A stretch of 29,766 nucleotides of DNA from a virus. Within the stretch, counting starts at the first letter, position 1. The number at the start of each line of letters is the position of its first letter. The stretch is taken from IMG/VR virus record IMGVR_UViG_3300025154_000316, positions 1 to 29,766 of that record. One strand, given 5' to 3'. The notes below the pieces were generated by a model. That model saw only the letters and a program-made list of their open reading frames with translations, did not search any database and was not told where the DNA came from. A program made the translations under genes and the position numbers. This document shows, piece after piece, positions 13,378-27,408 of the stretch.

Positions 13378-14805
<1,428 letters not shown>

Positions 14806-14808
14806 ACT

Positions 14809-15102
14809 TTAAGTCCTAACAACTGATGTTAATACTTCTTTCGTAGCATCTGTATATGTTACTGTTACTGTAGCTACTGCAAGTCCACCATAAGTGAAAG
14901 TGTAAACCTCTGTGCTTGTTGTTGGATATGCTACAGTTACAGAATCCCAATTCTCGTTTATAATTCCTATTCCTCCTACTCCCTCTACTTTAAGCCTATG
15001 TGTTGTTGGATCTGCCTGTAATGGAACAATTGTGTTGTCACCATCACTTGATTCAGCAGCAGCTCCGGTAATCCTATTTTGATCTCTGTTTACGTTAGCC
15101 AT
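14809..15102 (-). CDS. Small beta-rich virion-associated protein (97 aa)
   Basis: The ATG at 15102 overlaps the coiled-coil gene by 8 bases. The N-terminus MANVNRDQNRITGAAAESSD is polar and flexible. A short HRLKVEG strand follows, then from residue 50 a beta-sheet pattern (SVTVAYPTTSTEVYTFTYGG, TVTVTYTDATKEVLTSVVRT). Small proteins of this kind commonly precede fibre genes in phage genomes and may attach or fold the fibre. It lies three bases before the collagen-like gene. No enzymatic motif is visible. Confidence 0.65.
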   Translation of the reverse strand: MANVNRDQNRITGAAAESSDGDNTIVPLQADPTTHRLKVEGVGGIGIINENWDSVTVAYPTTSTEVYTFTYGGLAVATVTVTYTDATKEVLTSVVRT

Positions 15103-15658
15103 TATTTTGTACTCGCTTAGTTAAAATTTCGTTCTGTAATGACCTTAATGAAGCTATCTTATCCTTAATGCTCTTTTCCTCCTTCTCCAATCTCTTAAAC
15201 CTTATATCCAATAACTTTGATCTTTGGTCTATTATTTCCCGATTGCTCCTAATATCAGCAGTAATATTCTCAAATAATTTATTCCATAATAAAATCGCTG
15301 TACTCTTTAACGATTCCAGATCTTCTTCTATATCGTAAACCTGTTTTTCTTTTGTCGTTAAACTGTCCTGCCATTTTACTAATTCCTGTTTATAACTTTC
15401 TAAATCCCTTCTCTTATTCTCCAGATCTGTATATACCAGATCTAGTGTTTCCTCTGGATGTTTGAGTTCTTCTTCGAACTCTGACATCTTTTTCATAAAG
15501 GCACTAGATTCTTTCTCTAGCTCTTGGGCATAATTACCCTTAGCTATCTCTAGTGCCTCATGTATATTGTTCAGTTCTTTCGTAAGATCTGTTAATACTT
15601 CTTCTTTAAGTTCTATTTCATTTTCAATAAATTTTAACTTTTCTTCTTGATGGCTCAT
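15095..15658 (-). CDS. Coiled-coil protein of the head/fibre region (187 aa)
   Basis: The ATG at 15658 overlaps the preceding TGA as ATGA. Almost the whole length is heptad-rich (EEKLKFIENEIELKEEVLTD through EKEEKSIKDKIASLRSLQNE), with many Glu, Lys and Leu, no cysteine and no membrane segment. It is probably an extended dimer or trimer. It sits between a protein with a C-terminal HeH-like domain and the fibre genes. It may be a structural rod, assembly chaperone or scaffold-like factor; sequence alone does not decide. Confidence 0.7.
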   Translation of the reverse strand: MSHQEEKLKFIENEIELKEEVLTDLTKELNNIHEALEIAKGNYAQELEKESSAFMKKMSEFEEELKHPEETLDLVYTDLENKRRDLESYKQELVKWQDSLTTKEKQVYDIEEDLESLKSTAILLWNKLFENITADIRSNREIIDQRSKLLDIRFKRLEKEEKSIKDKIASLRSLQNEILTKRVQNNG

Positions 15659-16239
15659 ACTCCATACTTTTTTTCCATAACTGCCTTTACCATTTCCTCC
15701 TGTGTCATCCCCTTAATCCATACACCCTCTTTTGTGGCAATGGCTCTAAGTTTCGGAGATGACATTGTTGCCATCGCATCCGCTTCTGCTGCCTTTGGAT
15801 TATTAATCTTTTTTTCTTTTGCGATCATTTCTTCTTCTGTTTCTGTTACGATTTTTTCATCGTTTAAATTCTGGAATGAATCCTCTATGACTTCTGCTTG
15901 CTCACTAGCACCTACCTCTGATTCCTCATTCATTTTATGCACTTGTTCCTGTAATACTTGTGCCTCTGTCTTTGGTTTTGGTATAGCATATCCAGTATTC
16001 TCAACTAGTAATGATGCGATTGTCTTGTCCATTAATTCCTTGTCATTGACCTTAACAATACCAAACTGATTTGTGACTATAAGTCTAGCCATTTTAAGGG
16101 CTGCGTGTTCTGCTAAAAATTTGGGGAAGTTTGTAACTGTACCTGCTTTAGCTACATAAGGTACTTTATCCCAAGTAAAAACATAATCTTCTGGCATTGG
16201 ATTCTTCACACCCATTACTGTAAATTCTGTTGTTTCCAT
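15655..16239 (-). CDS. Head-associated / connector-like protein with C-terminal HeH (SAP-like) domain (194 aa)
   Basis: The start is ATG at 16239. The first 80 residues are a compact alpha/beta part (TVMGVKNPMPEDYVFTWDKV, FPKFLAEHAALKMARLIV) that resembles phage head-completion or capsid-associated proteins. Residues 90-150 are an acidic, flexible linker. Residues 158-192 (SSPKLRAIATKEGVWIKGMT, then EEMVKAVMEKKY) fit a helix-extended-helix SAP/HeH module: L-R-x-I-A near the start, G in the loop, and a T-x-E-E-M helix. HeH modules bind nucleic acid and are common at the ends of phage structural or Rho-like proteins. A stable hairpin precedes the gene. The exact virion position is inferred from order. 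Confidence 0.65.
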   Translation of the reverse strand: METTEFTVMGVKNPMPEDYVFTWDKVPYVAKAGTVTNFPKFLAEHAALKMARLIVTNQFGIVKVNDKELMDKTIASLLVENTGYAIPKPKTEAQVLQEQVHKMNEESEVGASEQAEVIEDSFQNLNDEKIVTETEEEMIAKEKKINNPKAAEADAMATMSSPKLRAIATKEGVWIKGMTQEEMVKAVMEKKYGV

Positions 16240-16267
16240 GTATATAAAAATAATAAATAATCTTTGA

Positions 16268-16293
16268 GGAGGGGAATATTACTACTCCCCTCC
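16268..16293 (-). terminator. Intergenic GC-rich hairpin (partial terminator or mRNA-processing stem)
   Basis: A perfect 8-bp stem, GGAGGGGA with TCCCCTCC, and a 10-nt loop, in the gap after the decoration-like gene. The downstream minus strand is A/T-rich but has no clean T-run, so it may act as a leaky terminator or protect the 3' end of capsid-operon mRNA. Confidence 0.5.
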
Positions 16294-16303
16294 AGTTCCA
16301 GTA

Positions 16304-16777
16304 TTAAGACCCTAGATTGTCCGTTACAAACGGATAATTCAATTCAAAGGTTGCTAATAAAGTTGTTTCGTTTACTGCCGATCTGCCCATAGCACCGACT
16401 ACTAAGTCACCTGCTACTGCTGTATCGTCAACTGATCCTGCTGTGCCTGTCAAGAAAACTAAGCCGTTATCAGCAAAAGCTGTAAGAGCCAAGCCACTTG
16501 CTTCACCATAGATCTGAAACCAACCATAGCTAGAAGCTACGATTGCTGCCATAGCAACTCCTACTCTACCCTTTGCATTAGCTGCTGATCGAGTAGTTAC
16601 ACCGGCTTCATCGAATGAAACCCATGTACCAATCGCTACACTAGCTACGCCTAGAAGGTAGATGTATTCGTTACCATCTTTATCGAAAGCCCTTGTACCT
16701 ACTGGGTGCATTGCTGCTGAATCGACAACTGTCGTATCCCCAGTAAAAACTTCCGTTCTTCCTGTTAAGTATGCCAT
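16304..16777 (-). CDS. Capsid decoration-like protein (157 aa)
   Basis: The start is ATG at 16777 (MAYLTGRTEVFTGDTTVVDS). The protein is Ala/Gly/Val-rich and beta-structured. It contains HPVGTRAFDKDGNEYIYLLG, GRVGVAMAAIVASSYGWFQI, GLVFLTGTAGSVDD and DLVVGAMGRS, a pattern like capsid-cementing proteins in which GTRAFDKDGNEY..L.GV recurs. It comes soon after the major capsid gene, separated only by the beta-helix gene. The GC-rich hairpin downstream fits a gene needing high mRNA levels. A decoration role is inferred from location and appearance; another small virion protein is possible. Confidence 0.7.
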   Translation of the reverse strand: MAYLTGRTEVFTGDTTVVDSAAMHPVGTRAFDKDGNEYIYLLGVASVAIGTWVSFDEAGVTTRSAANAKGRVGVAMAAIVASSYGWFQIYGEASGLALTAFADNGLVFLTGTAGSVDDTAVAGDLVVGAMGRSAVNETTLLATFELNYPFVTDNLGS

Positions 16778-16806
16778 ATTTTCAAATATAACAATAAATT
16801 AAATAA

Positions 16807-17775
16807 TTAAGCTGCTGCTACTGTTAGACCTGCTGTCGCTCCTGTAGCTTGTGCCATTCCGCCTGCTGCTTCTACAACTGTAAAGTCGCTAGCCCAATCA
16901 GTAGCACCAAATAACCAGCTATCCCAAAGGATAACTGAACCACCTGCTGATGCACTAAGGCTCATAGCAACTGTCATAGTAGTAGCTGCTGAATTACCTG
17001 CATTATGGAACATACAGTGATCGAACATAACGAATCTATCTATATCTCCCGATGATGCAGCTTTGACAAATAATGCTCCTGCATTATCCGCATACGCTAA
17101 GAATAAACATCCTTTAAATACGTTGCGTGTACTAGCTGACGTAAGTTCTACGTTTGCATTAGCTGCTGATCTTGCTACTGTGTCAAGACCTATTGTACAA
17201 TTTTCAAATAAATTTTCCTCTGCTCCAGTCAATGTTATACATCGAGCTGTTGCATCATCACCTGCTGTTTCATGACCAATTCCAGCAAAATGTACATTGT
17301 TAAAGTAGTTCCTGTCTCCAGTTAAACTTACAAGTACATCATTACTAGCTTGGTATGTAGCAAGTTGAATGTTTAAAAATCTATTTCCATTTCCGGAGAT
17401 AGTCAAACAAGGATCTGTCGAATCAACTGTAAATACGATTCTTGATCTTTGCGAAATCCCCGTTTCTGCGTTTGCTCCAATTACTGTTATGTAACTCTTG
17501 TCCCATGTGATAGTTGCGACTTCCGCAGTACCAGCAGTTCCATTGGGAGCTACTATAATAACATCATAATTGTGAGTAACACATGAGTCCTCTGCTTTGG
17601 TGAGTGTCTTGTAGGCACTACCCCATGAATCGCCAGTATTGGTATCTAAACCATTAGTAGCATCAACATAGAATATGTTACCTACCATAGGCAAGCCCAC
17701 CATCCCAGCAATATCCTCTGGCATTATTTTGCCACCGAATTTAAGTGCTGGAATATAGTTGTGTGCTTTTAACAT
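16807..17775 (-). CDS. Right-handed beta-helix virion protein beside the capsid gene (322 aa)
   Basis: ATG at 17775 has a good Shine-Dalgarno (AGGAG, six bases upstream). After a 30-residue leader comes FYVDATNGLDTNTGDSWGSA followed by YKTLTKAEDSC, the characteristic opening of DUF1565/NosD-like pectate-lyase-fold proteins. Beta-helix coils follow: ISGNGNRFLNIQLATYQ, LTGDRNYFNNVHFAGIG, TGAEENLFENCTIGLD and TRNVFKGCLFLAY, with regular Asn and Phe ladders. No catalytic set is obvious. Its place between major capsid and decoration-like genes is unusual, because such folds are normally in tailspikes. It may be a capsid-anchored surface protein. Confidence 0.7.
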   Translation of the reverse strand: MLKAHNYIPALKFGGKIMPEDIAGMVGLPMVGNIFYVDATNGLDTNTGDSWGSAYKTLTKAEDSCVTHNYDVIIVAPNGTAGTAEVATITWDKSYITVIGANAETGISQRSRIVFTVDSTDPCLTISGNGNRFLNIQLATYQASNDVLVSLTGDRNYFNNVHFAGIGHETAGDDATARCITLTGAEENLFENCTIGLDTVARSAANANVELTSASTRNVFKGCLFLAYADNAGALFVKAASSGDIDRFVMFDHCMFHNAGNSAATTMTVAMSLSASAGGSVILWDSWLFGATDWASDFTVVEAAGGMAQATGATAGLTVAAA

Positions 17776-17791
17776 AGTTTACTCCTATTAA

Positions 17792-18850
17792 TTATGAGAA
17801 GTTAATTGTCCAGTGCCTATTTGGGTTGAATGAGATCAAGTTGCCAAGCAGAATTATGTGACCAACTTCTGCATATTGATTAATGCTATCTATTAGTCCA
17901 CTGAAATTAAAACCCATATTCTTACTGGGTACATCGCTGTATACACCATCAATCTGCTTATTCCCACCAATTTGAATTGGAGAGTATTTCTTGCTGGCTG
18001 ATTTAAGTCCATACCATGCTATGTGTCTCTCGTTGATACCCCACATCTTGCCTGATGTACATTTGTCATCGGCTACGATTGGAACACCTCTGAAAAATAA
18101 AGCATTGAATCCTAGATCACCTTTCAAAGCTGATATGCTTGGTACAACACTATTGCGAGTTACCTGCTTGTAGCCATCGGCTGTAACATTTGATGCTACT
18201 GTTGCTTGCAGTAATGTTTCATACTGATTGAAGCGAGTATCATCGGTAACTATAAGAGTGGTTTTATCGCTTCCCTTTTCGGCTGCTGACATTGCTGTAG
18301 CCATTGCTGCCAAAGTGACTGCTCCGGTTACATCATATTCATTAGCTTTAAGTGAAGGATAAGTTCCTCTTGCTAAACCTCCATAAGTTGCTACTTCACC
18401 ACCATCATCAATGATAGCTGCTAAACCTAAGAAGTCTTTGCTTGAGTTGCCTGTGCCATCTCCGTAAAGTATTGTCCCTATGTCATCCATTCCGGCGTTG
18501 GCTGCTTCTTCCATAGCTTCTATTACTAGATCTAAGGCTGCTTGCTCATCGGCTGCTGTGACATCTCTCTCTGTTCCATCAATAACGACTGGTATTTCAT
18601 ACCCTCGAATATCGAATGATAATCTCCTCTTGGTGTCAGATTTGTTGGTACTGAAAGTATCCATTGATCCGAATGATCCACCATTTGCTTGCTTGGTAAC
18701 AATAACAGTCTTGTCCATCTTTCGACCTCTCCAAGGCTGTGCGTTTCCAATTAAGCGTGTTGCCAATACATTTCCCGAAAGAATTGTATCAACTGCCTTT
18801 GGTGCAAGTTTTGTTTGCGTGAAGGCTTGTACGTTTGTTGAAAAATCCAT
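17792..18850 (-). CDS. Major capsid protein (352 aa)
   Basis: The ATG at 18850 is preferred over an upstream in-frame TTG (18853). The N-terminus (MDFSTNVQAFTQTKLAPKAV) is followed by DTILSGNVLATRLIGNAQPW and GRKMDKTVIV, typical of HK97-fold capsid proteins of podovirus-like phages. Residues 75-130 include FDIRGYEIPVVIDGTERDV and a long helix (AADEQAALDLVIEAMEEAA), like the spine helix. Later parts include TTLIVTDDTRFNQYETLLQA and GFNALFFRGVPIVADDKC, with RGVPIVADD resembling a P-domain strand. Its position directly after the scaffold gene and its length are as expected. There is no protease gene or fused delta domain, so head maturation probably relies on the separate scaffold. Confidence 0.85.
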   Translation of the reverse strand: MDFSTNVQAFTQTKLAPKAVDTILSGNVLATRLIGNAQPWRGRKMDKTVIVTKQANGGSFGSMDTFSTNKSDTKRRLSFDIRGYEIPVVIDGTERDVTAADEQAALDLVIEAMEEAANAGMDDIGTILYGDGTGNSSKDFLGLAAIIDDGGEVATYGGLARGTYPSLKANEYDVTGAVTLAAMATAMSAAEKGSDKTTLIVTDDTRFNQYETLLQATVASNVTADGYKQVTRNSVVPSISALKGDLGFNALFFRGVPIVADDKCTSGKMWGINERHIAWYGLKSASKKYSPIQIGGNKQIDGVYSDVPSKNMGFNFSGLIDSINQYAEVGHIILLGNLISFNPNRHWTINFS

Positions 18851-18867
18851 CAAAGTTAATTAAAAAA

Positions 18868-19713
18868 TTATTTCTTATTTCTATGTAGAAACTCAACTCC
18901 TAAATCAAACATACTTTTATTTCTCTCGGATGAAGGATCGTATGTGTCCTCCTTTGACGTAGACGCTGCGGATGATTTACCTGATCCAATTGCATTTAAT
19001 GTATTTGAATCTGGCTTATCTTTTTGATCCTTTGCAAGATCATTCCATAGATCTAACATATCTAGGATGGGCATTTTAGAGCCTGCTTTATACTTGGATG
19101 AGGCGTAAGTTAAAAACTTATCCCTGTTATCCTTATCATCAGCAAAGAAGGTTTCAACATCATCTAATTCTTTTTGTACAGATGTTTTAGTTTGTACCTC
19201 TTGGCTCTGTATTCTATCCCTTTCTCTTTGATCAATAATTGTAAGATCTTTTATAAGAGCTGCTCTTATGTCACCATAGAGTGACATAATGTCTGGATAT
19301 TCTTCTGGCTTCTTGAAAGTGTATTTAGTGTCGATAACTGGTTTAAAGTCCTCGAATCCTCCTACATTTCCATCTACCTTCTGTTTATCCTTTTCTGCAC
19401 CTGACAACTTGAGCTTCAATTCATCGAGTTCCTTTTGGAGTTGTTGCTTCTCTGAAAGAGTAGTTTCCTTCTCCTTTAGTGCATCGTTCTTTTGTTTAAT
19501 AAGTTCCTTGAATCTAGGAATCTCATTGTAGTTTTTAGCTTCCTTTGATTTTCCTTCTTCATCTTCCTCATTATCTTGCTCTGCATTGTCATCGGATTGT
19601 TTCTCATCCTTTGTGCTATCATCGGAATCTTTATTTTCAGCCTCATCCTTGTTGGCTGTTTCATCGGTGGATGAATCCGACTTTAATGCTTCATCCAATT
19701 CAATACTTCCCAT
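18868..19713 (-). CDS. Scaffolding protein (281 aa)
   Basis: The ATG at 19713 follows an A/T leader (TTATTATTATTATTAA) with no Shine-Dalgarno. Residues 1-60 are extremely acidic and Ser/Asp/Glu-rich. Residues 65-115 form a coiled coil (KELIKQKNDALKEKETTLSE, KQQLQKELDELKLKL). The rest is helical with charged turns and a basic end (FLHRNKK), as in scaffolds whose C-terminal helices bind capsid subunits. It would guide procapsid assembly and leave before or during packaging. Location between portal and capsid is classical. A TTGTCG-N17-TATAAT promoter lies 50-80 bases upstream, so scaffold and capsid can be transcribed apart from portal. Confidence 0.8.
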   Translation of the reverse strand: MGSIELDEALKSDSSTDETANKDEAENKDSDDSTKDEKQSDDNAEQDNEEDEEGKSKEAKNYNEIPRFKELIKQKNDALKEKETTLSEKQQLQKELDELKLKLSGAEKDKQKVDGNVGGFEDFKPVIDTKYTFKKPEEYPDIMSLYGDIRAALIKDLTIIDQRERDRIQSQEVQTKTSVQKELDDVETFFADDKDNRDKFLTYASSKYKAGSKMPILDMLDLWNDLAKDQKDKPDSNTLNAIGSGKSSAASTSKEDTYDPSSERNKSMFDLGVEFLHRNKK

Positions 19714-19733
19714 TTAATAATAATAATAAATAA

Positions 19734-19750
19734 CGACAATTACGTTGTCG
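19734..19750. promoter_or_regulatory. Inverted TTGTCG pair, possible operator
   Basis: CGACAA (19734-19739) and TTGTCG (19745-19750) form a 6-bp inverted repeat with a 5-bp spacer. It lies in the leader between the scaffold/capsid promoter and the scaffold ATG. The half-site is identical to the -35 hexamer of the four structural-gene promoters, so one protein might recognise both. Confidence 0.4.
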
Positions 19751-19762
19751 ATTCGATCCTAA

Positions 19763-21844
19763 TTAAATTATACCTTCACCATTCCCACCCGACAACATTC
19801 CTGCCATTCCCTGTGCTGGTGGCATTCCTTCTGGTGGCATTGCTCCTTGCATTCCTGCTTGTTGCATCGCCTGATCCTGCATCATTGCCTGTGCCTCTAG
19901 CCCTTGTTGTTCTACTGCTCCTTGCTGTGTTACCAAGTCCTGTGCTTGTGCCTGTTGTCCTTGCATCTGTTGTTCCTGTTGATTAGCTAATTCTTCAAGA
20001 TTGATCTTCTCAAGTTCTATATGTTCTTTTAGTTGTCCTTTTATAAATTCACTTAATGATTCATAGTCTGGAAGTCCATCATAGATCTCAACACCTTTGA
20101 GATACTGTATGTGTGTACTCAAGTGCTTGCTGTATGCCTCTAACTCCCCTTTGAATAAATCAACCTCCTGATCTCCTGTCTGTCTATCGGCTAGAATATC
20201 AACTGTATGCCTGACAGACAGGAGCTCAAACTGCATTGGATCTGTGATTTCTGGATAGAGTTGTGCTGGATCTGTTTGTTCTAGTAATGCGTTCTTAGCC
20301 ATCTTGTTAGGATTTGGATAATCCAATACCTCATATAGATCTTTTAATGACATTAGTTTATTCTTTGCCAAATCTATTGCCTGTGCTTGTTCTGCTATCG
20401 GCTCTTTCGGGGCTGTACTTCCATCTTTAACCTTACACAAAATCTTGGCTTTCTTAAAATCATTGATCTTGATCTTAACATCGGATCTGCTTTTTGCATC
20501 ATAGTATTCCGAATCTATTTCTAAATCATCGGTTTTAAATAGTTTCCACATCTGAATCTTCCAGTTGAAGTATTCTTCATCGTACTGTTCTAAGTTAGTT
20601 GTTGTTAAATCTATTCTTCCGTAGTCTGATTCCTTAAGAATTGCTCTACCTGTTGCTGTTTCAATCGAATCTCTTTCACCTCTTGTTGTGCTGTGTGTAC
20701 CGAATATATTGTCTATCTCTGATTTGCTATCAAGCATATCAGTGTAAGTACCATTATCAAGCTGTCTACCAAGTAGTTGAGTTAGCTTACCTTCTACATT
20801 GTCTGCCCCTTCTAGGTATATTGCGTGATCATTATTACCTATGTTCTCGGCTTCGTCTCTTGATATGTAGTTTCCGGCTACTACCCATCTACCATTTGCA
20901 AACTCTGTGTTTGTTTCGATCTGTCTCTTTCTCTTATTAACCGCATTCTGTATTGAGATAGATTGTTCAATCGTTGTCGTGTCATCGGCTATGTTTTCTC
21001 CTGTAGATATAAAGCTAGTAAAGAGATATGGTGATTTTGGTTTTGCAAAGTGATTGTTTTTTACATTTTTAAAATCATACAATGGTGACTGTGTTCTTTT
21101 CAGTAGTATATCCTCATAAAGATATGCTACTAAATCATTCTCCCAATACTCGAATACAATTATCTGTGATTTTAGACTTGGTTTATCACCATGTGTCTTT
21201 ACTTTTGCAACTACTTCTTCAAACTTATCTGGGAATAAATCTTTAATTTCCGTTAATGTGTATCTTTTAATCTCTACAATATAAGGAAGTTCATCCTTTG
21301 TTGCGTATCCTCTAGGAAACATTATAGATCTTGGGTTTACAATATAGTGTTTTGATCTTTGTTCATCTTCACACCAGTACATCTTTCCACAAACGAATCC
21401 TGCCATCTGCCCGTTCCTATCCCCGATCTGCATTTGTTGTCGCATCTTATCGTAAATATCCCATTCATCCTTGAGTAGTCTTTCTAGTTTATCTTTTAAA
21501 CTCTTGTTGGCATTCGTTCTAGGTTTAATAACAATTGATGGCTCTGGCGTTTTCCTTGTAGCAATAGGAACAATAGTTTCTACTGCTTGGAATATCTTAT
21601 TTATAACTATCTTACTTTCACCTACATTTAGTTTGCTTTCGTCAATTTGATTACCTTTCCAGTATTCTTTATTCTCGTTATATCTCCTTATTAATTCTTC
21701 GTAATAACCCTGACATTCGGCTATCCTTTCTCTGATTATTGTCGCTGCATCATCCTCACTAGCTGACATTAAGTCTTGCAAAATATTATCTTGTGGAACC
21801 TGATCCGCACTTGGAATATTCACTGAACGATTAGTATCTCCCAT
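19763..21844 (-). CDS. Portal protein (693 aa)
   Basis: The ATG at 21844 (MGDTNRSVNIPSADQVPQDN) is not preceded by a clear Shine-Dalgarno. Residues 35-75 carry the helical opening (RERIAECQGYYEELIRRYNE, then YWKGNQID). KIVINKIFQAVETIVPIATR and KTPEPSIVIKPR follow, a signature of large P22/T7-type portal proteins. Other landmarks are FVCGKMYWCEDE, HYIVNPRSIMFP, and SISIQNAVNKRKRQIETNTE for the long stem/clip helix. Residues 610-693 are Gln/Met/Ala/Gly-rich low complexity ending in GGNGEGII, probably a flexible barrel tail. Length suits podoviral portals. The dodecamer would be the DNA channel and terminase docking site. Its 3' end contains the promoter for the scaffold gene. Confidence 0.85.
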   Translation of the reverse strand: MGDTNRSVNIPSADQVPQDNILQDLMSASEDDAATIIRERIAECQGYYEELIRRYNENKEYWKGNQIDESKLNVGESKIVINKIFQAVETIVPIATRKTPEPSIVIKPRTNANKSLKDKLERLLKDEWDIYDKMRQQMQIGDRNGQMAGFVCGKMYWCEDEQRSKHYIVNPRSIMFPRGYATKDELPYIVEIKRYTLTEIKDLFPDKFEEVVAKVKTHGDKPSLKSQIIVFEYWENDLVAYLYEDILLKRTQSPLYDFKNVKNNHFAKPKSPYLFTSFISTGENIADDTTTIEQSISIQNAVNKRKRQIETNTEFANGRWVVAGNYISRDEAENIGNNDHAIYLEGADNVEGKLTQLLGRQLDNGTYTDMLDSKSEIDNIFGTHSTTRGERDSIETATGRAILKESDYGRIDLTTTNLEQYDEEYFNWKIQMWKLFKTDDLEIDSEYYDAKSRSDVKIKINDFKKAKILCKVKDGSTAPKEPIAEQAQAIDLAKNKLMSLKDLYEVLDYPNPNKMAKNALLEQTDPAQLYPEITDPMQFELLSVRHTVDILADRQTGDQEVDLFKGELEAYSKHLSTHIQYLKGVEIYDGLPDYESLSEFIKGQLKEHIELEKINLEELANQQEQQMQGQQAQAQDLVTQQGAVEQQGLEAQAMMQDQAMQQAGMQGAMPPEGMPPAQGMAGMLSGGNGEGII
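19767..19795 (-). promoter_or_regulatory. Promoter of the scaffold-capsid operon, TTGTCG-N17-TATAAT
   Basis: Within the last codons of the portal gene, the minus strand reads TTGTCG (19795-19790), continuing GG, with 17 bp to a perfect TATAAT (19772-19767). The predicted start near 19760 gives a leader of about 45 bases to the scaffold ATG at 19713. Confidence 0.7.
20173..20224. repeat. 12-bp perfect inverted repeat inside the portal gene
   Basis: CTCCTGTCTGTC (20173-20184) and GACAGACAGGAG (20213-20224) are perfectly complementary, with a 28-bp spacer, inside portal coding sequence. The frame is intact. It could be chance or a quasipalindrome improved by template switching, as proposed for the terminase repeat. 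Confidence 0.45.
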
Positions 21845-21867
21845 ATTTCATGTTTAACTATAATAAG

Positions 21868-21896
21868 ATATTACTACTGTTTTCTCTGCCCGACAA
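21868..21896 (-). promoter_or_regulatory. Portal promoter, TTGTCG-N17-TAATAT
   Basis: Overlapping the 3' end of the large terminase gene, the minus strand has TTGTCG (21896-21891), continuing GG, with a 17-bp spacer to TAATAT (21873-21868), a 4 of 6 match. The predicted start near 21861 leaves a leader of only about 17 bases before the portal ATG. It has the weakest -10 of the four TTGTCGGG sites. Confidence 0.55.
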
Positions 21897-23526
21897 ACTC
21901 ATCAAGTACAGATTGATCTACTGTTCCATCTGGCTTTACCCATATTCCCTCCCTTCTTGCTTTCTCCTGCTTCTTATACTTTAATCTGGAAGCAAAACCT
22001 ATCTTTGCTTTCTGTAATGCTATGTACCAATAAAGCGTAGCATGAGCAAAGTGATCTATTCCATTTACACTAGCCCATCTAAACCTATCATTACCTATTC
22101 TATCTGGCTCTACGATCTTAACTAGTGAACTCCAATGGCTTATGTATTCCTCAAGATCCGTTAATGATACCTGAATTGGAAACTCTCCTCCTTGAATAAG
22201 ATCAATAATAGCATCAAATGTTTCCTCTCTCCTAATCAGTACAGTACCATTATCCTCAAATTTAGCTATATCTCTTTGATCTGATTCTGGTTTATAGAAT
22301 GCCCTCCAAACTCTATTTTTAAAATCTGTTGACATTGATCTTGGTACTTGCTGATAAGGTAAAGCATCAATAACCATTTTGCATTGGTATTTTTCAAATA
22401 GATACTTTATCTCTTGCCATGATTCTGTCTTACCCACCTTGAATATTCCTTGTACATTACCAATAACATAATGCTTCATGTTACCCTGATCTACTCCCAT
22501 TGCATTTTGTTCCTGCCAATTCTTCTCACCATCCATATTAGCTACGATATTTTCTCTGTTCACTTTAATATCGGATGCTGTATATGGTCTGGCTAGTACA
22601 AAGTTATGGAAAAACGATTTCTCAAGTGTTACATCTTCTTCTTTCTCTAGTATATCTTTTACATGATGCCGGATATAAATCATTTGTGGCATCCAGTAAC
22701 CTCTATATTCTGTTCTACTTGGATACTTAGCTATCCATTCCCCAATACTTCTATCAACATCTGATAATTCCTGACGACACTTTCCACATACGAATATCTT
22801 TTTATCAACATCTACCCAGCTATGGCTTGTTCCCGATTTAAAATCTAGTTTATCAAGTCTGCACCAATCAATGTATTGCCTATATCCACAATGTCCACAC
22901 TGTACTATCCAATGTCTTTGATCTGATTTCTGATACACTGCATCCGACCCCATCAATGGATATGTTGGGTTATCGAATAACCATCTACCTTTATATAAAC
23001 TATTATCAAGCCTAGATCTCATTTGGTTTATAACAAATTGATCTGACCTGCTGGCTTCATCGTGGATGTTTAAGTCAGCAGGTCAGATCAATTTGTTATA
23101 AACCAAATGCTTCTTCAAGTCTGATTTACTGTTATATGTTCCTGTAAAGTTTATAAACCTTTGATCTAGCCCACTTCCCAGAGACTTTAAACTCATGTTT
23201 CCTGATACATCTCCAAATATAAGAGGATTGTTTTCTATTATCTTGTTTACTTTTGGTGGTACGAACTTCTCTAAAAATTGATCTGTTGGTAATGTATAGA
23301 TCACGTTATACTTTCTTACCTTTGCTGCATAGAAGGCTTTTAATATAGCAGTCTCTGACCATCCTATCTGCGATGATTTAATGATTGCTTGGTTTGGATG
23401 CCAATCGCACAATGGATCTGCTAGAAACTCATGTTCTTCCCATTCAAAAGGCTCCCCCTTGGAAGTCCGTATTTGATTATAGTGTATCCACTGTAAAATC
23501 CTATCGTCTAAATATTTATCAATCAT
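21874..23526 (-). pseudogene. Terminase large subunit, interrupted by one in-frame TGA within a 34-bp inverted repeat
   Basis: The packaging ATPase/nuclease. One frame runs from ATG at 23526 to the stop at 21874, 551 codons, with TGA only at codon 148 (23085-23083). The Walker A-like loop is IKSSQIGWSE (K50, G55, S57). Directly after the TGA comes PADLNIHDEASRSDQ, whose IHDE (D156, E157) is Walker B. Zinc-type pairs are C210/C213 and C247/C250. Nuclease acidic residues are likely D346 in GVDQGN, D387 in MVIDALPY and D491 in GIDHFAHATLY. The arrangement matches the phage GpA terminase family. Nine codons before PAD (HLVYNKLI-stop) are the reverse complement of the downstream codons, so removing 27 bp restores a clean gene. 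Either the copy is inactive or split, or the insertion is a sequencing or assembly artefact. The C-terminal part could start at ATG 23022, but it would lack the ATPase core. Confidence 0.85.
23020..23109. repeat. Perfect 34-bp inverted repeat with 22-bp loop in the terminase gene
   Basis: Arms 23020-23053 and 23076-23109 are complementary at all 34 positions, and pairing stops at both ends. The arm that encodes SRSDQFVINQM is the native one. The other arm creates HLVYNKLI plus TGA. Its innermost 7 bp (CCTGCTG, start of PAD) probably were native, forming a short seed palindrome with CAGCAGG. The remaining 27 bp look copied from the opposite strand. Confidence 0.95.
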
Positions 23527-23732
23527 TTTTCTAATATCATCATATTTCGGAATTGATCAGATATTCGCTTTAGTTCCTTGTCACAAGTTTTAATCCGTTG
23601 GATGTTTACCCACTGGATTTCCGCATCTTCTCTCTCCTTAACGATCCTTCTAAGTTCACTCTGTAGATCGTAGATCCGATGAAGAAGTGTCCATCCATTC
23701 ATCCTTTCTATCTTCGTCAAGCTCATCCTCAT
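23523..23732 (-). CDS. Small helical protein between the terminase subunits (69 aa)
   Basis: ATG at 23732, with an alternative at 23726; its TGA overlaps the large terminase ATG as ATGA. Residues 18-65 (LLHRIYDLQSELRRIVKERE, KELKRISDQFRNMMILEK) form a probable antiparallel or dimeric coiled coil. It overlaps the preceding short gene extensively in another frame. Tight coupling to the large terminase suggests a packaging accessory or a simple co-expressed small protein. No family was recognised. Confidence 0.6.
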   Translation of the reverse strand: MRMSLTKIERMNGWTLLHRIYDLQSELRRIVKEREDAEIQWVNIQRIKTCDKELKRISDQFRNMMILEK

Positions 23733-23784
23733 AAAAAGTTATAAACTTATAATTCTTACAACCACAATCCTTACATTCAATCAT
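23656..23784 (-). CDS. Very small Cys-cluster protein (42 aa)
   Basis: Start chosen at ATG 23784 (MIECKDCGCKNYKFITFYED) rather than an upstream ATG at 23886 that would lie deep inside the small terminase gene. The CKDCGC cluster followed by aromatic residues suggests half of a zinc ribbon. The second half is very acidic (DELDEDRKDEW). It overlaps the next gene by 77 bases in a different frame, which lowers confidence, though compact phage genomes allow this. Confidence 0.45.
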   Translation of the reverse strand: MIECKDCGCKNYKFITFYEDELDEDRKDEWMDTSSSDLRSTE

Positions 23785-23809
23785 AATTCTTTTTACCCAT
23801 TCTCTTTGT

Positions 23810-24334
23810 TTACTCTCTTTGAGTTTTATTTGCACGATTTTTTTGTTTAATATAAGCAAGGAAGTCACCAGTTCTTTGCTCTGCAATCATAGCAGCTCCG
23901 GTAAAATCTACCTCTGTCTTAGTTGCCGAATGAACACCAAGTATTTTATTCAACTCGGTTACTGCTGTTTTATAGATCAACGAATCGACTGCCGCAAGCC
24001 TCGCATTACCTTGTTTATCGTAGACTAATTGTGTCTTTGAAAATTCCTCTATAGCTTTCTTTAGATGTTCTATCATTCCTTCCTTCGTTCCCAGTCCATC
24101 TATCCGATTATATTCCTTCCATTTCTCAATAAGGTTGGTAATGGTTGGTAAATTCAATAGCTTAGATCCATTTGATTTCGAGGTAGCATTATCTTTCACA
24201 TTATAAGCAACTTTGTATGATCTGTTTGCATTCCCATCAACTGCATACTCTTTAGCAAACTTAGCCTGTTTTATAGTCACCTTTCTCTCAAGTTTCTTTA
24301 TCTCATCCAATAATGTTTTGATAGTTGCTAACAT
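23810..24334 (-). CDS. Terminase small subunit (174 aa)
   Basis: The ATG at 24334 has AAGGA six bases upstream, one of the clearer ribosome sites here. After a short helical N-terminus (TIKTLLDEIKKLERKV), residues 20-65 contain TIKQAKFAKEYAVDGNANRS followed by YKVAYNV and NGSKLLNLPTITNLI. This is the DNA-binding helix-turn-helix pattern of phage small terminases (x-Q-x-x-F-x-x-E-Y at the start, S-x-L-L-x-x-P-x-I/V at the end). The rest is helical, for oligomerisation, with a basic tail that may contact the large subunit. It would bind the packaging site and stimulate the large subunit. Its position upstream of the large terminase supports this. Confidence 0.8.
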   Translation of the reverse strand: MLATIKTLLDEIKKLERKVTIKQAKFAKEYAVDGNANRSYKVAYNVKDNATSKSNGSKLLNLPTITNLIEKWKEYNRIDGLGTKEGMIEHLKKAIEEFSKTQLVYDKQGNARLAAVDSLIYKTAVTELNKILGVHSATKTEVDFTGAAMIAEQRTGDFLAYIKQKNRANKTQRE

Positions 24335-24653
24335 ATTTTTCCTTATAAACTATTCTTGTAATAAAATCTATTAAAACTAATTGCGATTTGCTATGCTTTC
24401 TTACTCCGTACTTCTCTTGTAATGTTCTACCCATTGACTGACAGAATACACAAACTGCTCTTGGTGTTGGTTTCAATATATCTTCTGCGATATGCTCTAC
24501 TATGTCTTCTGCTTCATTATATGATATTTCCTTAAAATGATCTCTGGTCGATAATCTTGACCAGTCATTATGTAGGGAAAGTTTAACTATATAATTAAAC
24601 TCCTCTGCCGGTCTCCATATCTCCTCGTAGTGACAGTAGCACCTTCCTTGCAT
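24303..24653 (-). CDS. Hypothetical Cys-containing protein upstream of terminase (116 aa)
   Basis: The ATG at 24653 (MQGRCYCHYEEIWRPAEEF) lies 7 bases after a 26-aa membrane peptide gene, and the end overlaps the small terminase by 32 bases. There are two cysteine pairs, C-x-C-H near the N-terminus and C-x-x-C in AVCVFCQSMG, separated by a helical region (AEDIVEHIAEDI). A zinc-binding fold is possible. The C-terminus is basic and aromatic (RIVYKEKYVSNYQ). No nuclease HNH signature is complete. Function unknown; location suggests packaging or late regulation. Confidence 0.65.
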   Translation of the reverse strand: MQGRCYCHYEEIWRPAEEFNYIVKLSLHNDWSRLSTRDHFKEISYNEAEDIVEHIAEDILKPTPRAVCVFCQSMGRTLQEKYGVRKHSKSQLVLIDFITRIVYKEKYVSNYQNIIG

Positions 24654-27356: not shown

Positions 27357-27408
27357 TTTGGTGATGGCAAGGAGACTATTTGTGGAGTTAACCTTAACCA
27401 TCACCAAA
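27357..27408 (-). promoter_or_regulatory. Long intergenic hairpin flanked by direct repeats
   Basis: TTTGGTGATGG (27357-27367) pairs with CCATCACCAAA (27398-27408), 11 bp without mismatch. After a small internal loop, AAGG/CCTT adds four pairs. It lies in an 87-bp non-coding gap. CAAACAATAAA occurs at both edges (27331-27341 and 27405-27415). There is no T-run, so it is not a standard terminator. Confidence 0.6.

Follow-up and report, generated by a model that had tools for sequence, protein, structure and literature searches.

A perfect palindrome beside Walker B of a viral large terminase gene, probably a product of fold-back library fragments

The DNA analysed here (the window, 29,766 bases) is IMG/VR virus record IMGVR_UViG_3300025154_000316, positions 1 to 29,766, which is the record itself. 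Its minus strand carries genes for a large terminase subunit and a portal protein, and a protein resembling tail fibres, with repeats of the collagen type (Pfam Collagen, E 2e-36), is encoded at positions 13378-14805. A preliminary description made from the letters of the sequence had assigned the terminase, and this was borne out by PHROG 675, which matches on both sides of an internal stop (E 8e-55 for one part and 4e-18 for the other), and by Pfam GpA_ATPase, for which the shorter part falls below Pfam's cut-off. The description was also right that a TGA is the sole stop in the 551-codon frame, that the frame is intact on both sides of it and that it stands beside Walker B: codon 148 is eight codons before the Asp-Glu pair at 156-157. 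The first possible start codon after the stop is the ATG at 23022. Walker B sits between the stop and that ATG, so that neither terminase fragment would contain it.

The stop is part of a perfect inverted repeat, reported earlier as two 34-bp arms around a 22-bp loop, of which both the coordinates and the pairing were reproduced: the arms are complementary at 34 of 34 positions and the structure occupies exactly 23020-23109. About 2e-14 inverted repeats of this size are expected by chance in 30 kb. The longest one in 15 Markov-resampled copies of the window was 13 bp, the longest comparable one in other IMG/VR terminase loci (484 kb) is 16 bp, and the fold of the window version of the site has a z of -14.1 against shuffled DNA. 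Other repeats in the window measure 10-11 bp (15499/15549, 2768/2795, 27357/27398 and 27759/27852), and their number is close to the chance expectation. The perfect 11-bp inverted repeat at 27357-27408, with a loop of 30 bases, lies between two small genes and may be a terminator, an operator or a chance pairing.

When the downstream portion of the terminase protein was used as query, a single close relative was obtained from IMG/VR, contig IMGVR_UViG_3300009285_000166 (11,149 bases, here called L004), which is also the sole other near-identical contig. L004 aligns over its full length with window positions 13412-24560 without any difference in length, and the comparison of events is confined to this part. 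No terminase relatives were found in genome contigs, and for the window parts beyond L004 neither three proteins nor an exact pattern of 33 bases led to a close relative among viral contigs. The sequence spanning the outer junction 23109/23110 was found in no other viral contig when searched for as an exact match. Over the 11,149 bp the window and L004 differ at 30 bases, all within two clusters and with no single substitution elsewhere. The first cluster (23077-23109, 24 of 33 positions different) belongs to the right arm of the terminase palindrome, and the second (20216-20223, 6 of 8) to that of a palindrome located in the portal gene (Table 1). Both sites are non-palindromic in L004, and a nearby reverse-complement template accounts for all 30 differences. 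The preliminary description had proposed a search of related phages for the ungapped form. L004 has no palindrome, its terminase frame is open and its codon number is the same as that of the window.

Table 1. Positions of the terminase and portal features in the window
Feature	Position	Strand	Description
Terminase large subunit gene	21874-23526	minus	551 codons including stop; TGA at codon 148 in this record, open in L004
Terminase palindrome, left arm	23020-23053	none	Native, template of the copy; minus strand codes for residues just after Walker B; same bases in L004
Terminase palindrome, loop	23054-23075	none	22 nt, native, identical in L004; holds the minus-strand Walker B codons and, at its ends, most of the seed GGCTT/AAGTC
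Terminase palindrome, right arm	23076-23109	none	Non-native; length-neutral replacement by the left-arm reverse complement; carries the in-frame TGA
Portal gene	19763-21844	minus	EPEAV in L004 versus ELLSV in the window; frame kept, no stop made
Second palindrome, left arm	20173-20184	none	Native
Second palindrome, right arm	20213-20224	none	6 of 8 positions at 20216-20223 changed relative to L004; length kept

Judged from the alignment with L004, the terminase event is a length-neutral exchange in which 33-34 native bases gave way to a reverse-complement copy of the left arm. The site had first been read as an insertion of nine codons (27 bp) seeded on a native 7-bp pair, CCTGCTG/CAGCAGG. Of this reading, the templated, non-native origin of one arm is supported by the comparison, and so is an artefact, which was named there as a possibility. 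The insertion has to be abandoned, as the site is equally long in L004 and hence nothing was inserted; the proposed seed fails as well, since CAGCAGG at 23076-23082 is itself mostly new. Homologues with the same nine codons but no stop, which would speak against a templated origin, did not turn up. The native seed is instead formed by GGCTT (23053-23057) and AAGTC (23072-23076) at the inner end of the arms, with four Watson-Crick pairs and one G-T pair. At the outer boundary, 23109/23110, there is no homology for a return switch, yet the register is exact. A move of the native arm to another place in the window was considered and rejected, the best match there being 22 of 34 positions. Before the event, as represented by L004, the two 34-base tracts matched at 10 of 34 positions, and the fold of this stretch resembles that of shuffled DNA (z -0.5), so there was no quasipalindrome at the terminase site to correct. 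Quasipalindrome correction, which needs a prior imperfect inverted repeat, was therefore rejected; in the portal gene such a repeat existed only weakly (6 of 12).

The second length-neutral reverse-complement replacement relative to L004 is located at window 20169-20228. The portal tract is the reverse complement of its left arm, seeded on a native GTC/GAC of 3 bp, with 8 positions replaced, and there is a weak native outer pairing (C-G and TGA/TCA). The two events have in common that the new tract is the reverse complement of the adjacent arm, starts at a native seed, keeps the length and is absent from L004. Relatives of the portal protein in the phage collection were only two, both about 25% identical, from a spring-water Caudoviricetes genome (MW202566) and from TM7 phage DolZOral124_53_65. 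The host may belong to a little-studied bacterial group.

By alignment with the terminase family, the L004 tract is a better fit than the window tract. A Gly-Ile-Ser...Asp segment leading to Walker B is common to L004 and five annotated phage terminases. Of 79 distant IMG/VR relatives, 73 have a Ser aligned with Ser147, 74 have an Asp aligned with Asp151, and none has a stop at the site of codon 148; in the window tract Ser147 is lost and the stop is gained. A single observation favours the window tract: its stop is followed by Pro-Ala-Asp, and Pro and Ala are the residues preferred in the family at 149-150, whereas L004 carries Thr-Ser there. At minus-strand codons 147-151 (23074-23088), Ile-stop-Pro-Ala-Asp in the false arm comes close to the family consensus Ser-Ile-Pro-Ala-Asp. 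We judge this likeness to be a coincidence because the tract copies the other arm exactly. The TGA together with the loss of the conserved stretch beside Walker B would probably be lethal.

In view of the above, the palindrome is most likely not biological. The comparison of the two contigs suggests that it is probably a sequencing or assembly artefact derived from fold-back library fragments. Such an origin is favoured because two multi-base replacements with no other difference in 11 kb make an odd mutation spectrum, because the exact in-register end without homology at 23109/23110 would be expected of an ungapped read end, because a conserved stretch beside Walker B is lost and the terminase is broken, and because a known library artefact (Star et al. 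2014, PMC3946424) has the same anatomy. We infer the following course for the fragments and the consensus step. A short single-stranded library fragment that starts at 23020 on the plus strand would fold back at the chance pairing of AAGTC on GGCTT. Its unpaired 3' end would be trimmed, after which an end-repair polymerase would extend the trimmed strand as far as the 5' terminus of the fragment itself, and the product would be a 90-base interrupted palindrome that corresponds exactly to 23020-23109. The false 34-base tail could then have entered the contig column for column at low read depth. The exact length would follow if the read was laid ungapped on the contig during low-depth consensus calling. 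A second fragment of 52 bases (20173-20224) with the seed GAC/GTC may have taken the same course in the portal gene.

In the artefact described by Star et al. 2014, single strands fold at short natural complementary stretches, lose their unpaired 3' ends and are filled in with the strand's own 5' end as template (PMC3946424). The resulting reads, of about 65-80 bases and low in G+C, have complementary ends, are wrong only at the 3' end and possess arms of 11 bp on average (PMC3946424). The two sites described here share with these reads a correct left arm, a short inner seed, a false right arm that pairs with the fragment start, a single direction of extension and fragment-sized units (90 and 52 bases). 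In both, the false 3' arm matches the reverse complement of the 5' arm without error, the 5' arm and the inner part agree with L004, and GGCTT/AAGTC and GTC/GAC are short natural inner seeds. The sites differ from the reads in that they occur in an assembled contig and not in reads, and in that the longer arm, with 34 bases, exceeds the 11-bp average. Fold-back reads are reported to be rare in libraries from modern DNA (PMC3946424). A likeness also exists to the chimaeras explained by the PDSM model (PMC10908179), in which end repair leaves reads whose ends are reverse-complement copies of the sequence nearby; those, however, were found in human DNA and mostly at pre-existing near-perfect repeats, of which the terminase site had almost none. 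Against an artefact it can be argued that a pure de Bruijn assembler needs real molecules across 23109/23110, and a simple fold-back read gives none. Alignments totalling 147 kb, from 24 further pairs of near-identical IMG/VR contigs that are not all independent, showed no event of this kind. It is therefore not a general fault of IMG/VR, and any fault would be specific to this sample or record.

Real template switching, either as a mutation in the phage or during whole-genome amplification before sequencing, would have to have happened twice in this genome, and we consider it unlikely, though it is the strongest competitor of the fold-back artefact. The plus strand would fold at AAGTC/GGCTT, copy 33 bases of itself and return to the template, and the terminase copy would represent a dead or defective genome. 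Short-range template switching is described for bacteria, yeast and apes, and its signature, a perfect local reverse-complement copy with a seed of 3-5 nt, is seen in both tracts (PMC7954356, PMC8604942, PMC8794818). It is documented in yeast coding genes (PMC8604942), and perfect hairpins can arise in one switch step (PMC8794818). Clustered substitutions and a one-step perfect hairpin made by local reverse-complement copying are likewise in line with the four-point model (PMC7954356), and in the portal gene the outer native pairing would guide an in-register return. The terminase event, however, is in exact register without outer homology for the return, and the length is unchanged in only 5.5% of the template-switch events in apes (PMC7954356). 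Two events in genomes that are otherwise identical, with no point substitution in 11 kb, are also unlike this process, and a lethal allele is unlikely as the consensus of a growing population. For a switch during amplification it should be considered that amplification chimaeras usually have one junction. That phage or host replication often makes length-neutral, homology-free replacements of this type, two per 11 kb without a point mutation, appears very improbable; if true, it would mean a mutation process that rewrites gene stretches in one step with the frame kept.

To a functional recoding site in a two-part terminase, acting by read-through, hopping or reinitiation, we attach hardly any probability. 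The in-frame TGA, the intact frame on both sides and the strong hairpin agree with it, as do the Pro-Ala-Asp codons after the stop, close to the family consensus at 149-151, if these are not taken as coincidence. An ATC codon precedes the TGA and another lies 21 bases on, and the stop just after a repeated codon had invited a comparison with T4 gene 60 bypassing. But L004 has neither the stop nor the hairpin, the 79 relatives give no sign of a conserved signal, the tract destroys positions conserved in them, and an ATC-to-ATC hop would delete codons for the strand that runs up to Walker B. A split packaging motor, also suggested earlier, would have Walker B in neither fragment. TGA ends 10 of the 37 likely genes in the window and is thus an ordinary stop here, for which reason an alternative genetic code with TGA as an amino acid codon was rejected; tRNA genes were sought in the window and none was found. 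Moreover, the same kind of change makes no stop in the portal gene. That the inverted repeat is old, had a conserved role and was lost in L004 is the least credible reading, being backed by the perfect pairing and nothing else, while the hairpin is absent from all relatives and it is the L004 tract, not the window tract, that encodes an open frame and residues common to distant terminases.

If the palindrome is a fold-back artefact, as we suggest, fold-back copies in assembled viral contigs can disrupt essential genes and at the same time pass for remarkable hairpins. A reverse-complement replacement that leaves the length unchanged and has no homology at its end would be a usable warning sign, for which contigs can be screened by comparing near-identical pairs. 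Should reads prove the palindrome to be real, it would point to an unusual template-switch process in a phage.
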